Source of the DNA: Anaerosoma tenue
GTDB lineage: Bacteria; Actinomycetota; Coriobacteriia; Anaerosomatales; Anaerosomataceae
Reading direction: 5' to 3'
Length of the DNA: 64,000 nucleotides
NCBI RefSeq assembly: GCF_023161965.1
Contig: NZ_JALNTY010000001.1
Coordinates: forward strand, 496,001 to 560,000
Part shown: positions 55,568-62,651 of the stretch, piece after piece
How the letters are laid out: the number at the start of each line of letters is the position of its first letter
Position numbering within the stretch: the stretch's first letter is position 1
Translations under genes and position numbers: made by a program
The notes under the pieces: model-generated
What the model was told of the DNA's origin: nothing
Database searches by the model: none
Seen by the model: the letters and a program-made list of their open reading frames with translations, nothing else

Positions 55568-56353
55568 TCAGGCCTCCTCGATGACGATATGCTCGCGCAA
55601 GGCGCGCAGCGTCTTCCTCAGCAGGCGGGAGACCTGCATCTGGGATATCCCTAGCATGCTGGCGATCTCCGTCTGCGTGAGTCCCTGGAAGAAACGGAGA
55701 TACAGGACGTGCTGCTCCAGCGGTGAGAGGCGCTTCAGGCCCTCCGAGAGCGTCGTCCTGTCGTCCACCAGCGCCATCAGCTGATCGTCTTCACCGACAT
55801 ACTCGAGGATGCTGAAGGAATCGTTGCCATCGGAGTTGCGGTCGGTCTCCAGCGAAACGAAGTTGTACGCCTCCGACGTCTCGAGCGCCTCCAGGACGTC
55901 CTCGGTGGTGACTTCAAGGTACTCGGCTATCTCAAGTATCGTGGGCGACCGCTGCTCACGCTGTGTGAGCGCATCGATCGCCTGGTTGACCCGGAACGAC
56001 AGTTCCTGAAGGCGCCGCGGCACCTTGATGGCCCATCCCTTGTCGCGGAAGTACCGCTTGAGCTCGCCGACGATGGTGGGCGTCGCGTAGGTGGTGAACT
56101 CCACCTCGCGCTGGATGTCGAACCGGTCGATAGCCTTGATCAGGCCGATCGTCCCCACCTGGATCAGGTCGTCGATCGGCTCGCCCCGGTTGCGGAAGCG
56201 GCTGGCCAGGTACTTGACCAGGTTGAGATACATGGTGATGAGCTCGTCACGCGACTCCTCATCGCCATGTTCGTGATAGTGGATGAACAGCTGCCTCGTG
56301 TGCTCCTTGTCCCACACGAGCCGCCGCTCTTGTCGGCGCTGGGCTTTAGGCAC
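55568..56353 (-). CDS. SigB/SigF-type RNA polymerase sigma factor
   Basis: Alternative sigma factor of the general-stress/sporulation group, 261 residues. Region 2 is MYLNLVKYLASRFRNRGEP and DLIQVGTIGLIKAIDRFD, with the -10-recognising helix FTTYATPTIVGELKRYFRDKG. Region 3 follows, and region 4 has LTQTEIASMLGISQMQVSRLL as the -35 helix-turn-helix. The GTG at 56353 overlaps the stop of the anti-sigma gene by 8 bases, matching the usual rsbW-sigB coupling. No anti-anti-sigma gene (rsbV) is in the window. Confidence 0.9.
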   Translation of the reverse strand: MPKAQRRQERRLVWDKEHTRQLFIHYHEHGDEESRDELITMYLNLVKYLASRFRNRGEPIDDLIQVGTIGLIKAIDRFDIQREVEFTTYATPTIVGELKRYFRDKGWAIKVPRRLQELSFRVNQAIDALTQREQRSPTILEIAEYLEVTTEDVLEALETSEAYNFVSLETDRNSDGNDSFSILEYVGEDDQLMALVDDRTTLSEGLKRLSPLEQHVLYLRFFQGLTQTEIASMLGISQMQVSRLLRKTLRALREHIVIEEA

Positions 56354-56741
56354 CGGGCTCTCCCGCAACGGATCCCGCACGGCGGCACAGCCGGAGACTG
56401 CACCCTTCGTCACTGCGCTCGATCTCGAACTCGTCACACACGGAACGGAGGATGAACTCCGCATACCCTCCCGGCGCTTCTTCGACGGACCGCGCATCCC
56501 GCAGCGGCCCCGCGACGATCTCGAGCGAATCGGGCGACACGAGGAACGTGAACGTAGCCTCGCCGTCCTCACCCAGGCACTGGCTGGCGTAGACGAACGC
56601 CTCCTCAGCGGCGATGCGCACGTCATCGACCTCGTCATAGGACATGCCGAGCCTGCTCGCCAGCTCGGCCGCGGTGAGCCGCACCGTCTTGGCATACTCC
56701 CCCCGCGTGGGGACGGTAAGTGTGATCCGATCGCTAGCCAT
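56346..56741 (-). CDS. RsbW-like anti-sigma factor with altered ATP-binding motif
   Basis: GHKL-fold protein of 131 residues, the probable anti-sigma factor for the downstream sigma gene. It aligns with RsbW/SpoIIAB in the region YAKTVRLTAAELASRLG and VDDVRIAAEEAFVYA. In RsbW the last part contains the N-box Asn (EAxxNA); here the position is Tyr (EAFVYA). The DxGxG G1 motif is also not recognisable. Sigma binding may therefore persist without kinase activity. The ATG at 56741 has AAGGAGG five bases upstream. Confidence 0.78.
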   Translation of the reverse strand: MASDRITLTVPTRGEYAKTVRLTAAELASRLGMSYDEVDDVRIAAEEAFVYASQCLGEDGEATFTFLVSPDSLEIVAGPLRDARSVEEAPGGYAEFILRSVCDEFEIERSDEGCSLRLCRRAGSVAGEPGA

Positions 56742-56773
56742 GGATCCTCCTTCGATGAGACCCGCAGACGCGC

Positions 56774-57106
56774 TCATCGTTTGCCGAACGAACGGATGAC
56801 GCGCGCAACACCCTGCGCGGCGGTGTTGACGGGCGAGCGGATGAAATCGCTCGCGGTGGAGACGGCTTCGGTCACGCCCTCGGCCTGCGACACGATCGCG
56901 TCGAGTCGCAGAAGCTCGGCGTTGACGGCGTCGATCGTCACGTCTGCCTTGTCGAGCAAGGGGACGATACGCACCCTCACGTCCTCGACGGCCGCCTGTA
57001 TGTCGCGCACGGCTCTCACCGCCACCACCACACCGTAGAGAGCGACGAGCGACAGCACGATGGCGACGACCGTGAGCACTATGCTGAGGGTCCCGGAAGC
57101 GTCCAA
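56774..57106 (-). CDS. DUF948 domain membrane protein
   Basis: A 110-residue protein with one N-terminal membrane helix (about 8-28, IVLTVVAIVLSLVALYGVVVA) and a long amphipathic coiled coil (VRDIQAAVEDVRVRIVPLL onward), the DUF948 architecture. The start is TTG at 57106 behind AAGGGCAGG. It leads the anti-sigma/sigma pair with a gap of 32 bases, and a TACACT -10-like box precedes it. Role unknown, possibly envelope-related stress sensing. Confidence 0.75.
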   Translation of the reverse strand: MDASGTLSIVLTVVAIVLSLVALYGVVVAVRAVRDIQAAVEDVRVRIVPLLDKADVTIDAVNAELLRLDAIVSQAEGVTEAVSTASDFIRSPVNTAAQGVARVIRSFGKR

Positions 57107-57168: not shown

Positions 57169-58467
57169 CTACGGCTCTTCCTGCTGGCCCGGCCCCTCTG
57201 CCGGGCGGTAGTACCGTCTCCCGGTGAGCCCGTCCGGCAGGTACTGCTGCTCGACCCGCGCGCCGGGATGATCATGCGGGTACTGGTACGGCGGATACAG
57301 GTCCGCGCCCGGCCGGTGCCGGTCCCGCAGATGGTCGGGCACGCGCTCGGCCCGCCCCTCACGGATGTCGCGTAGCGCTTCATCGATCGCCACGTAGGCA
57401 GCGTTGCTCTTGGGAGCCAGCGCGAGGTAGATCGCGGCATGCGCAAGGTTGATGCGCGCCTCGGGCCAGCCCACCGACTCGGCCGCCTTGAAAGCCGCCA
57501 CCGCGACAGAAAGCGCCCCGGGATCGGCCATCCCCACGTCTTCCGAGGCGAATATCAGCATCCGCCGCGCGATGAACTTCGGGTCTTCGCCTCCGGCCAC
57601 CATCCGCGCCAGCCAGTACACGGCGGCGTCGGGGTCGCTGCCCCGCATCGACTTGATGAACGCCGAGATCACATCGTAGTGGGCGTCCCCACCCTTGTCG
57701 TAGGGCACAGCGCGCACCGCCGTGGCCCTCGCGACCTCGTCCGGAGTCACGACCGGCGCTTCGCCTGGCGCCCTTTCGACGGCTGCGGCAGACGCGATCT
57801 GCGCCGCGAGCTCGAGCGTGGTGAGGGCGCTGCGAGCGTCGCCACCGGCACGGGTGACGATCGCGTCGAGCGCCTCCGGCGTGATGCTGACCGAACCCCC
57901 AAGACCGCGCACCGGCTCCTGGAGCGCGCGCTCCAGGATGGCCCTGATGTCATCGTCGGTGAGCGGGGTGAACTCGACGATCCGCGAGCGGCTGATAAGC
58001 GGAGCGTTCACCTCGAAGAACGGGTTCTCGGTGGTGGCGCCGATGAGGACGACCAGCCGGTCCTCCACCGCATGAAGCAGCGCGTCCTGTTGCGATTTGT
58101 TGAAGCGATGGATCTCGTCGATGAACAGCAGCGTCCGGCGGCCGGTCATCTTGAGGCGTTCCCTCGCCTGCTCGATCACCAGCCGGACCTCTTTGACGCC
58201 CGCATCCACTGCCGAGAGCTCCACCACGTGAGCTTCGGTCATGCCGGCGATCACGCGGGCGAGGCTCGTCTTGCCGGTCCCTGCAGGACCGTACAGGATG
58301 AGCGACGAGAGCGCGTCGATCTCGATAGCGGTCCGAAGAACGGTCCCGGGCCCCACGGCATCGCCCTGCCCGACGAACTCGTCGAGCGTACGCGGACGCA
58401 TCCGCGCAGCAAGAGGCGCACCTTCGGTAAGGCTCTGCTCGGCCGTGTCGTCGAACAGGTCGCGCAC
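57169..58467 (-). CDS. rarA: replication-associated recombination protein A (RarA/MgsA)
   Basis: AAA+ ATPase acting at stalled replication forks. The protein is 432 residues. Walker A GPAGTGKTSLARVIAG lies near residue 60, Walker B LLFIDEIHRFNKSQQD near 115, and a sensor 1 region GATTENPFFE follows. The C-terminal oligomerisation domain includes RGSDPDAAVYWLARMVAGGEDP. The GTG start lies 2 bases after the lipoprotein stop. In Bacillus rarA also follows hisS-aspS and the 6S-1 RNA gene. Confidence 0.96.
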   Translation of the reverse strand: MRDLFDDTAEQSLTEGAPLAARMRPRTLDEFVGQGDAVGPGTVLRTAIEIDALSSLILYGPAGTGKTSLARVIAGMTEAHVVELSAVDAGVKEVRLVIEQARERLKMTGRRTLLFIDEIHRFNKSQQDALLHAVEDRLVVLIGATTENPFFEVNAPLISRSRIVEFTPLTDDDIRAILERALQEPVRGLGGSVSITPEALDAIVTRAGGDARSALTTLELAAQIASAAAVERAPGEAPVVTPDEVARATAVRAVPYDKGGDAHYDVISAFIKSMRGSDPDAAVYWLARMVAGGEDPKFIARRMLIFASEDVGMADPGALSVAVAAFKAAESVGWPEARINLAHAAIYLALAPKSNAAYVAIDEALRDIREGRAERVPDHLRDRHRPGADLYPPYQYPHDHPGARVEQQYLPDGLTGRRYYRPAEGPGQQEEP

Positions 58468-58469
58468 TT

Positions 58470-59024
58470 CTAGCGCGTGGCGCGCTCGACCTCGCGCTTG
58501 ATGACGCCGCTCTCGGCGTAGCCCTTCCAGCGCCAGGTGATGAACGAGTCCCGATCGACTATGAGCGTGTACGGCGTGCTCGTGACCCCGAGTTCGTTGG
58601 CGTACATCGTTGCGGCCTCGGCGGCGGTGGCATCACCGTTACCGCTCACATCGAACGTCACCATATCGATCAGGCCACGGTAGTCATCGACGACCGCATC
58701 AATCTCTTCGCGCACATCGTCGGTGACCAACTGCTCGCTGTCGTAGAAGTAGATGATCATCGCCCTGCCGGCATCGAGTTTGGCCTGGAAGGCGTGCGGT
58801 GTGAGCGTGGTGGTGAACGACGGGAACGGAGCGGGCGCGATGTCGTCATCGTTGGCCGAGCGATCGGTCAGATACTCGGGCCCCTCGGGCTCCGCCGGCG
58901 CGGGTGCGGCTTCCGGCTCTTCTGTGACTGGTGCATCCTCGGCCGCCGTGTCTTCGGCTGTCCCGCAGCCGATCACGGTGAACGCGAGCAGTGCTACGAC
59001 GATTGCTACGACTATCCTGCGCAT
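58470..59024 (-). CDS. thioredoxin-fold lipoprotein lacking the CxxC motif
   Basis: A 184-residue lipoprotein. The signal peptide ends at lipobox VIGC (about residue 20), and an acidic Pro/Ala/Glu linker leads to a thioredoxin-like domain (about 85-184). The domain keeps the core strand AMIIYFYDSEQLV, the middle strand MVTFDVSGNGDA and the cis-Pro loop STPYTLIVDRD. The active-site Cys-x-x-Cys is replaced by SEQL, so redox chemistry is unlikely. The ATG at 59024 has GGAGG 6-7 bases upstream. It sits between the candidate RNA and rarA. Confidence 0.7.
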   Translation of the reverse strand: MRRIVVAIVVALLAFTVIGCGTAEDTAAEDAPVTEEPEAAPAPAEPEGPEYLTDRSANDDDIAPAPFPSFTTTLTPHAFQAKLDAGRAMIIYFYDSEQLVTDDVREEIDAVVDDYRGLIDMVTFDVSGNGDATAAEAATMYANELGVTSTPYTLIVDRDSFITWRWKGYAESGVIKREVERATR

Positions 59025-59044
59025 ATGTTTCCTCCACCCCTCAG

Positions 59045-59219
59045 GGTATGGTCGAACCCCGCCCTGCGTGGTCGGCCGGGTGAACCTGCCGCAGCAGGTG
59101 GGTGCCCGCACCTCAGGTTCGCGCTTCCCCGAAGGGATACCACTCGCCTGTGGGATGTAGGGCTCCCGGTCAAGAAGTGTTGGCTCAACCGCTGACGCCG
59201 GGTCCACGCAAGGCAAGGC
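59045..59219 (-). ncRNA. candidate structured RNA, 6S-like
   Basis: On the minus strand, an 11-bp closing stem forms between GCCTTGCGTGG (59214-59204) and CCACGCAGGGC (59071-59061) with one G-U pair. Inside are a UUCG-capped hairpin TCCC/GGGA (59126-59137) and a 7-bp stem GAACCTG/CAGGTTC (59120-59114 with 59088-59082). A -10 box at 59226-59231 places the start 5 bases before the closing stem. The length of about 175 bases and the hisS-aspS-...-rarA setting match 6S RNA. The ends are approximate. It could alternatively be the structured 5' leader of the lipoprotein mRNA. Confidence 0.45.
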
Positions 59220-59225
59220 ACCATC

Positions 59226-59231
59226 ATCGTA
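59226..59231 (-). promoter_or_regulatory. candidate -10 box of the structured RNA
   Basis: TACGAT on the minus strand, about 7 bases before the predicted RNA start. No -35 consensus is seen. It is identical to the hexamer before dxs. Confidence 0.45.
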
Positions 59232-59270
59232 GCATCCTCGCCGTGCACATGCACCAGGAACGACCCCCTG

Positions 59271-59588
59271 TCAGTCGCCGTCACCGGGAGAGGACGGGCG
59301 CTCCTCGATGTCCCGCAGCCGTGCGCTGAGCGCACGGTGCGCAAGAACGAAACCGGACGCGAGGATGCCGCCGACCAGGAGCGCGGCGATGACGACGGTC
59401 GGATCACCACGGTGATCCCACACGGAGACCACGGCGATGGCCATCAACGCCACCGCCGCGATGATACGTGTCCACCGTCCGTATCCGGCCGACGTGAGGT
59501 CCCACCGGTACACGGCGCCCACGACCATGAAGAGCAGGGAGGCCGCGATGACCACCCCCGAGGCGATGAAGACCGACGGTGACATCAT
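59271..59588 (-). CDS. small three-helix membrane protein
   Basis: A 105-residue protein with about three membrane helices (VFIASGVVIAASLLFMVVG, IIAAVALMAIAVVSVW, VVIAALLVGGILASGFVLA) and an acidic C-terminal tail. No family is recognised. The first of two adjacent ATGs lies 6 bases after the aspS stop, so it is probably translated from the hisS-aspS message. Confidence 0.65.
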   Translation of the reverse strand: MMSPSVFIASGVVIAASLLFMVVGAVYRWDLTSAGYGRWTRIIAAVALMAIAVVSVWDHRGDPTVVIAALLVGGILASGFVLAHRALSARLRDIEERPSSPGDGD

Positions 59589-59594
59589 GCACTC

Positions 59595-61364
59595 CTAGTC
59601 CGTCTTGAGGTGGACCTCGCGCAGCTGACGCGCGCTTACGGCATCGGGTGCGCCCGTGAGCGGATCCGCGCCGGACGACGTCTTGGGGAACGCGATGACG
59701 TCACGGATCGAACTCGCACCCGCGAGCAGCATCACGAGGCGGTCGAGACCGAGAGCGATCCCGCCGTGGGGCGGAGCGCCGAAGGAAAGCGCCTCGAGCA
59801 GGAAGCCGAACTGGCGGCGCGCCTCTTCCTCTGTGAGCCCGATGCGCTCGAGAACGCGGAGTTGCAGGTCGGCGTTGTGTATACGCAGCGTGCCTCCCCC
59901 GATCTCGTAACCGTTCATGATGAGATCGTAACTGTAGGAGCCCAGCGACAGAGGCTCCGACTCCAGCCGCTCGATGTCTTCCTCGCGCGGCATCGTGAAC
60001 GGATGGTGGTTGGCCGCGTATCGCTCCTCGTCCGCGTCGTACTTGAACATCGGGAAGTCCACGACCCACAGCACGTCGAACCCGCTGCGCTCGATACCCA
60101 GCTCGTCGGCCATCTTCAGGCGAATGACGCCAAGGACCTCCTCGGCCACTGCGCGCGCATCCGCGACCATCAGCACGAGGTCACCGGGCTCCACACCGAG
60201 GACCTCGCGCAAAGCGGCCATCTCGTCATCCGAGAAGAACTTCGCGATCGGCGAACGTACCTCGTCCTCCGAGGTGAACGCCACCCATGCGAGGCCCTTG
60301 GCTCCCGCGTCGAGCGCCACCTGGTTGAGCGCGTCGATCCGGCCCCTGCTCCAGTCGCCCGCGCCCTTGGCGTTGATGCCCTTGATCACGCCACCGCTGG
60401 CGAGAGCTCCGGCGAAGACCTTGAACCCGCTGTCGGCGAACACCCGGGAGAGATCCTGCAGCTCCATGCCCAGTCGCGTGTCAGGGCGGTCGGAGCCGTA
60501 CCGATCCATGGCCTCGGCGTAGGTGAGACGCCGCAGCGGCACCGGAAGATCGACCGCGGCCTCCTTCATCACCTCGTGCATCACGGCCTCCATCATGGCC
60601 AGCACGTCATCCTCGGTGACGAATGACATCTCGATGTCCACCTGGGTGAACTCCGGCTGACGGTCGGCGCGCAGGTCTTCGTCCCTGAAGCAACGTGCGA
60701 TCTGGTAGTAGCGTTCGACGCCGGCCACCATGAACAGCTGCTTGAAGAGCTGCGGCGACTGCGGGAGCGCATAGAACGCCCCTGGGCTCATGCGGCTCGG
60801 GACGATGAAGTCGCGCGCCCCCTCCGGCGTGGACTTGCCGAGGATCGGGGTCTCCACCTCCATGAAACCGTACGACTCGAGGGCGCGACGGAACCGCTGC
60901 ACGACACGGTCGCGGAGCGAGAGCGCATAGAGCACCTCGGGCCGCCGGATGTCGAGGTACCGGTACCTCATACGGGTGACCTCGTCGGTGTCGATGCCCG
61001 GCTCGATCTCGAACGGCGGCGTCTCGCTGGCGTTCAGGACCTCGGCCTCGGCGATCTCGATCTCCACCTCACCCGTGGGCATGTTGGGGTTCTCGGTGCC
61101 TTCGGGCCGACGGCGGACGACGCCGGTGAGCTTGACGACCCACTCGGGCCGGACGCGCTCCGCGGTCACGAACGCCGCGCCGGACGCGTCGGGATCGAAC
61201 GTGCACTGCACGATGCCGCTGCGGTCCCTGAGGTCGATGAAGATCAGGCCGCCGTGGTCGCGACGCTTGGCCACCCACCCCGCCACGGTGACGGTCTCTC
61301 CGATCGAGTCGGCGGTTATGGCGCCGGCGATGTGCGTGCGTATCGAGTAGCGTGCGTCGAACAT
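59595..61364 (-). CDS. aspS: aspartyl-tRNA synthetase
   Basis: Charges tRNA-Asp (and tRNA-Asn if non-discriminating). The protein is 589 residues, bacterial type with the GAD insertion. An N-terminal OB-fold anticodon domain includes [21 protein letters not shown]. Class II motif 2 is [20 protein letters not shown] and motif 3 is [16 protein letters not shown]. It lies 15 bases after hisS. No gatCAB genes are in the window, so specificity for tRNA-Asn is open. Confidence 0.97.
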
Positions 61365-61379: not shown

Positions 61380-62651
61380 CTAGACGAGCGAGGCGGTCAC
61401 GGCGGCCACGGCCTCCGAGAGCGCCACGCGGCGTTCCTGCTTGCTTTCCATGTCGCGGAGCGTGAACTCCCCGGACGCGATCTCGTCGGGGCCCACGACC
61501 GCGACACGCCTCGCTCCGAGTCGGTCGGCCTGCTTGAACTGCGACTTCAGGCTGCGCCCCTGATGATCGAGCTCCGTGGCGATGCCCGCGTCACGCAGGC
61601 GCTGTGCGAGAGCGAAGACCTCTGCCAGCACGCTGTCGTCCACACGAGCCACGAACACGTCCGCTCTCGGTGGCGCCGGGATGTCCACGCCGGCTGCTTC
61701 GAGCGCAAGCAGCGTGCGCTCGAAGCCGAGCGCGAACCCCAGACCCGGTGTCGGTGGACCGCCGTACTCCTGCATCAGCCGGTCGTAGCGTCCGCCGCCG
61801 CCGATCGCGTTCTGCGAGCCGAGGCCCGCGTCCACCTGGATCTCGAACACCGTGCGGGTGTAGTAGTCGAGGCCGCGCACCAGCGTGGAGTCCTCGACGT
61901 ATGGGATGCCAAGGCCGTTCAGGTGCGTCTTGACCTCGGCATAGTGAGCGGCGCATGCGTCGCACAACGCGTCGCGGAGCAGCGGCGCGTCGGCCATGAC
62001 CGTCCGGCAACCATCCTTCTTGCAGTCGAAGGCCCGGAGGGGATTCGACTCGGCACGCCGCACGCATTCGTCACACAACTCGGCCGAGCGGGCGCGGATG
62101 AACGCGGCGACCGAGTCGCGGTACGCCGGCCGGCACTGTTCGTCGCCCATCGAGTTCAGCAGCAGACGCATGCTTCCCGCAGGGATACCCAGCGTCTCGA
62201 AGTAGCGCCAGAGGACGGTGATGACCTCGGCGTCCGCGGTGGCTCCGTCGGAGCCGAGACACTCGATGCCGATCTGCCAGAACTGCCGCATGCGGCCCTT
62301 CTGAGGACGTTCGTATCTGAACATCGGGCCTGCGTAGTAGAGCTTGGCCTGCGCCCCATTGGCCGTGAGATTGTGCTCGAGGGCCGAGCGCACCACGCTC
62401 GCGGTGCCCTCGGGGCGAAGCGTGATCGAACGGCCCGCCTTGTCCTCGAACGTGTACATCTCCTTGGAGACGATGTCCGTGGCCTCGCCGATGCCACGGG
62501 TGAACACGTCGGTGTGCTCGAAGAGCGGCGTATAGACCGGCTCATAACCGTAGCGGGCGAAGAGCTCCTGGGCGACGCGCTGCATGTGCTCCCATGCCCG
62601 CGCCACCGCGGGCAGCATGTCGGCGGTACCCTTGGGGGCCTGAGCGTTCAA
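61380..62651 (-). CDS. hisS: histidyl-tRNA synthetase
   Basis: Charges tRNA-His. The protein is 423 residues. It opens with APKGTADMLP, class II motif 2 is FRYERPQKGRMRQFWQIGIEC, read in two parts around the Arg-Gly, and His-A motif LVRGLDYYTRTVFEI is present. The C-terminal anticodon domain is complete. Four CxxC-like cysteines at about 195-235 are normal for the insertion domain. The start is TTG at 62651, with GGAAGG seven bases upstream. Confidence 0.97.
   Translation of the reverse strand: MNAQAPKGTADMLPAVARAWEHMQRVAQELFARYGYEPVYTPLFEHTDVFTRGIGEATDIVSKEMYTFEDKAGRSITLRPEGTASVVRSALEHNLTANGAQAKLYYAGPMFRYERPQKGRMRQFWQIGIECLGSDGATADAEVITVLWRYFETLGIPAGSMRLLLNSMGDEQCRPAYRDSVAAFIRARSAELCDECVRRAESNPLRAFDCKKDGCRTVMADAPLLRDALCDACAAHYAEVKTHLNGLGIPYVEDSTLVRGLDYYTRTVFEIQVDAGLGSQNAIGGGGRYDRLMQEYGGPPTPGLGFALGFERTLLALEAAGVDIPAPPRADVFVARVDDSVLAEVFALAQRLRDAGIATELDHQGRSLKSQFKQADRLGARRVAVVGPDEIASGEFTLRDMESKQERRVALSEAVAAVTASLV

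Follow-up and report, generated by a model that had tools for sequence, protein, structure and literature searches.

An RNA encoded on the minus strand between aspS and rarA of Anaerosoma tenue (2.1-Mb genome, class Coriobacteriia) is a 6S RNA by all of the sequence-based tests that we ran, and we regard it as a new member of a known family and not as a new kind of RNA. 6S RNA is a small RNA that mimics an open promoter and holds back the main RNA polymerase. When the window, the whole 64-kb stretch of DNA that was analysed (64,000 nucleotides), was scanned with 4227 Rfam families, 6S RNA was the sole match above gathering score (RF00013, 56.8 bits compared with a gathering score of 46.4, E 1.3e-8), and the match covered model positions 1–187 of 187.

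59052 to 59222, minus strand: 6S RNA (ssrS/bsrA homologue), about 171 nt; full-length match to RF00013, 175.4 bits with the lineage model

The length of 171 nt given by the model lies within the ∼160–200 nt of 6S RNAs, and predicted ends give 171–183 nt in relatives of the same order. The actinobacterial 6S homologue proposed in the initial annotation is supported by the Rfam model, as well as by the fold and by covariation in relatives. Moreover, the gene of the primary sigma factor RpoD is present in the genome. We consider it very probable that this is a single-copy, vertically inherited 6S RNA with its own sigma-A promoter, probably processed from a longer mRNA. It likely acts by mimicking an open promoter, so that it would bind the sigma-A holoenzyme and would be set free again when a pRNA is made.

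The fold of the minus strand has a free energy of −86 kcal/mol and exceeds dinucleotide shuffles in stability (z −2.7), with 2 of 200 being as good. Its elements are as follows.

59204 to 59219, minus strand: closing stem, 5′ arm (MFE fold; covariation)
59056 to 59071, minus strand: closing stem, 3′ arm (MFE fold; covariation)
59168 to 59199, minus strand: 5′ strand of the central bubble, with an invariant CCAAC (alignment A1)
59101 to 59167, minus strand: apical arm, GGGAGCCC/GGGCACCC and a UUCG-capped terminal hairpin (helices 2–5 of the covariation test)
59084 to 59099, minus strand: 3′-central-bubble hairpin ACCUGC/GCAGGU (99.4% of cells paired; pair probability 0.84–0.99)
59182 to 59190, minus strand: P2-like strand GGUUGAGCC, partner at 59079 to 59086 (97.9% of cells paired, almost invariant)

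The 11-bp stem and the UUCG hairpin that had been read from the sequence earlier are both present, the former (59204–59214 with 59061–59071) as the inner part of the 16-bp closing stem and the latter within the apical arm. With pair probabilities of 0.84–0.99, the 3′-bubble hairpin is predicted to be formed in the free RNA. The P2-type helix GGUUGAGCC/GGUUCACC shares bases and hence competes with this hairpin, and costs 4.8 kcal/mol in stability relative to the free fold; because it hardly varies, it has no covariation support. In alignment A1 (MAFFT, 30 relatives), the 41-pair 6S structure, comprising the closing stem, the central bubble, the 3′-bubble hairpin and the apical arm, was paired in 96.5% of the cells, and pairing fell to 41–50% when the partners were slid by one to three columns. 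Compensatory changes, altering both sides, occurred at 18 pairs in the aspS–rarA gap of these relatives, with 74 such cells compared with 21 in shuffles, and none of 500 shuffles reached as high a count; this covariation excludes chance as the source of the 6S structure. Among 76 sequences from across the phylum, between four and six pair types occur at the majority of closing-stem pairs; that alignment was fitted to a structure model, and A1 is the cleaner covariation test. A hand-made register of the lower apical helix (80–83 with 120–123) was rejected, as it was paired in 42.5% of cells compared with 91% for the RNAalifold register. The 5′ bubble GGUUGA[AG]CCAAC and the 3′ bubble CCACCUGC-loop-GCAGGUUCAC are near invariant, as expected of bases that contact polymerase or serve as its template.

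The gene order on the minus strand is hisS, aspS, a small membrane protein gene, 6S, a thioredoxin-like lipoprotein gene and rarA.

61380 to 62651, minus strand: hisS (PF13393, 180 bits)
59595 to 61364, minus strand: aspS (PF00152, 396 bits)
59271 to 59588, minus strand: small membrane protein, the ORF upstream of the 6S gap
58470 to 59024, minus strand: thioredoxin-like lipoprotein (profile match to 2m72, E 7.7e-5; kept in relatives)
57169 to 58467, minus strand: rarA, an MgsA-type AAA ATPase (PF12002, 212.7 bits)

The gap from the small membrane protein gene to the lipoprotein ATG measures 246 bases, as first described, and the gene order bears out the suggested Bacillus-like slot hisS-aspS-bsrA-rarA; in Bacillus subtilis, the neighbours of bsrA are aspS and yrvM (PMC11077062). 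The order aspS-6S-lipoprotein-rarA is general within the order of A. tenue, and aspS-6S-rarA, without the lipoprotein gene, is found in other, deep Actinomycetota. In two Geobacillus, a weak match to model R1, which was built from A1, lies directly after aspS (E 0.004–0.008). The common slot together with the common fold argues for vertical descent and not for recent transfer.

An extended −10 element precedes the RNA.

59226 to 59234, minus strand: extended −10 element TGCTACGAT (TGnTAssAT in 21 of 21 same-family relatives)

This element lies three bases upstream of the 5′ end of the 6S model and contains the TACGAT −10 box claimed in the initial annotation (59226–59231, minus strand). In all 21 same-family relatives TGnTAssAT is found just upstream of the RNA and nowhere else on the same strand of those loci. 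The motif is not rare in the window alone (2 found, 2 expected), and its weight thus rests on its conserved position. A consensus sigma-70 scan found no promoter at the 6S RNA because the −35 is weak; other families carry TTGnnn and TACACT-like boxes 17–18 bases apart. Eight gut Coriobacteriia loci share the motif TCAAGACT ∼20–35 bases upstream of the 6S −10 box; it may be bound by a regulator or represent a variant −35. The lipoprotein gene begins with codons (58985–59024, minus strand) that are conserved as DNA, also in relatives (ATGCGCAG..TCGTCGTAGCACTCGTCGTAGCA), and GTCGTAGCA is nearly the promoter box TGCTACGAT in reverse complement; this conservation might stem from codon choice or from an antisense promoter. 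Coding through the RNA was considered and rejected: its length differs among relatives by non-multiples of three, and the in-frame stretch ahead of the lipoprotein ATG ranges from 0 to 336 nt without being conserved.

No terminator was found between the 6S RNA and the lipoprotein gene, nor on the same strand down to 54300; many gut Coriobacteriia copies have a terminator-like site soon after 6S. Because a terminator is absent and the lipoprotein ATG (59024) follows 27 nt past the end of the RNA, with GGAGG at 59031–59035, the 6S RNA probably forms the 5′ end of a longer mRNA and would be cut out of it, and its co-transcription with the closely following lipoprotein gene is likely. Hence, the mature 3′ end would depend on the proposed processing. 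In B. subtilis, 6S-1 that is extended by the neighbouring mRNA still binds polymerase (PMC11077062). The genes that come after rarA (55568–57106, minus strand) encode another small membrane protein, then an RsbW-like anti-sigma factor and a SigB/SigF-type sigma factor, an order that is kept in eight relatives and was not seen in two more distant loci. One long transcript running from 6S through the lipoprotein gene, rarA and the second small membrane protein gene to the anti-sigma and sigma genes is a rather unlikely arrangement; if true, a single transcription event would make an inhibitor of sigma-A polymerase and also allow synthesis of an alternative sigma factor and its anti-sigma factor.

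The way in which such an RNA would act can be outlined by analogy with its family, using the following template.

59179 to 59192, minus strand: predicted pRNA template, start opposite C44 (59179) (aligned to the Rfam 6S consensus; analogy with C40 of B. subtilis)

Transcription would begin at the RNA's own sigma-A promoter and probably yield a longer mRNA, from whose 5′ part the RNA would be processed; its rod with a central bubble would mimic an open promoter and occupy the sigma-A holoenzyme, and sigma-A transcription would be lowered by 6S when nutrients are exhausted. When nucleotides are back, the polymerase would start at C44 and use the 5′ bubble strand as template for a short pRNA, predicted to read 5′-GUUGGCUCAACCGC... 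(also written GUUGGCUCAACC..., GUUGGCUC, GUUGGCUCAACCGCUGAC), and this synthesis would unwind the inner helix, leave the 3′-bubble hairpin formed and free the enzyme. The template and 3′-hairpin sequences are conserved. The predicted start aligns with U44 of Escherichia coli 6S, the pRNA start there. The pRNA of B. subtilis starts at C40 (PMC8876501).

RF00013 finds one copy each in 38 of the 41 genomes of the near-relative set, and model R1 one copy each in 144 of 148 Coriobacteriia (E ≤ 0.001), gut families included; R1 used the poorer apical register, which would if anything depress its scores. Copies from three other Coriobacteriia families scored 31–46 bits with the Rfam model compared with 90–116 bits with model R2, whose 76 source sequences include some of these families' copies. 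Because gut-family copies fall under the Rfam cut-off, standard annotation probably misses them. Among 296 sampled Actinomycetota genomes, 102 were matched by RF00013 (73 over the cut-off), 110 by R2 and 113 by the two together, mostly in genomes without WhiB. WhiB is a marker of the better-known actinobacteria and was matched in 132 of the 296. The two occur together in 5 genomes compared with ∼50 expected (Fisher p ∼1e-31, descriptive only, as the genomes are related); the 6S RNA is in the aspS–rarA slot in four of the five, and aspS adjoins it in the fifth. Some of these cases could still be assembly contaminants, but two of the genomes belong to one family. L178, L179, L180 and L181, which have WhiB and a 6S-like RNA between aspS and rarA, are candidates for a 6S/Ms1 transition state.

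According to the published view, actinobacteria lack 6S RNA and use Ms1 instead (PMC9130861, PMC11077062). Here, canonical 6S RNA is present in almost every Coriobacteriia genome sampled, and many other deep Actinomycetota carry it too, at the site that it occupies in Bacillus. This points to an ancestral 6S RNA that the branch bearing WhiB later lost, where Ms1 may have taken its place. Such a history could be tested in gut Coriobacteriia that can be cultured and in lineages that combine WhiB with 6S. Our text search found no publication on 6S RNA in Coriobacter, Rubrobacter or Eggerthella, and the one match each for Collinsella and Atopobium was, by its title, not a 6S study; Wehner 2014 and Barrick 2005, which survey the distribution of 6S, lay outside this comparison, and some Actinomycetota copies may already be in Rfam.

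Ms1, whose structure is related to that of 6S RNA, is the RNAP-binding RNA known in Mycobacterium and Streptomyces (PMC9130861, PMC11077062), and the present RNA might act in the same manner, by binding the RNAP core and not the sigma-A holoenzyme. This is very improbable, because the RNA passes the 6S covariance model, its ∼171 nt compare with ∼300 nt for Ms1 (PMC11077062), neither its predicted length nor its neighbourhood fits Ms1, and it occupies the Bacillus 6S-1 slot, whereas in Streptomyces the RNA with 6S-1 synteny, Str11, did not bind RNAP, and the genuine Ms1 is encoded elsewhere (PMC9130861). Slightly less credible still is the view that the RNA serves the lipoprotein gene as a cis-acting 5′ leader and has no trans function. 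In most relatives of the order, the ATG lies 15–28 nt past the RNA and has a ribosome site, and a terminator is absent. But the whole 6S fold including bubble and template is conserved, and lineages without this lipoprotein have the same RNA before rarA or before other genes, where a terminator-like site is frequent, or, as in several gut Coriobacteriia, adjoining rarA on the opposite strand. Thus the sole role as lipoprotein leader, which the initial annotation had named as its counter-case, is not borne out, and the RNA may be a leader and a 6S RNA simultaneously.

As a 6S RNA that would bind the sigma-A holoenzyme, it is like Ms1 a rod-like RNA, of the same phylum; Ms1 is RNAP-binding, and differs in its greater length, in binding core RNAP and in its gene neighbourhood. 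E. coli 6S RNA (ssrS) belongs to the same family and has the same layout; its neighbour is ygfA, so that the neighbours differ, and the 3′-bubble hairpin is here, by comparison, predicted to be already formed in the free RNA. Compared with B. subtilis, which has 6S-1 and 6S-2, one copy was found here, and in contrast to 6S-1 it is GC-rich and has a lipoprotein gene next to it on the 3′ side, with no intervening terminator. Nevertheless, 6S-1 (bsrA, RF00013) shares the covariance match, the rod with a central bubble, the aspS–rarA slot and a C in the 5′ bubble as the pRNA start, predicted here, and its 3′-bubble hairpin, present already in the free RNA (PMC8876501), resembles the one predicted in A. 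tenue.
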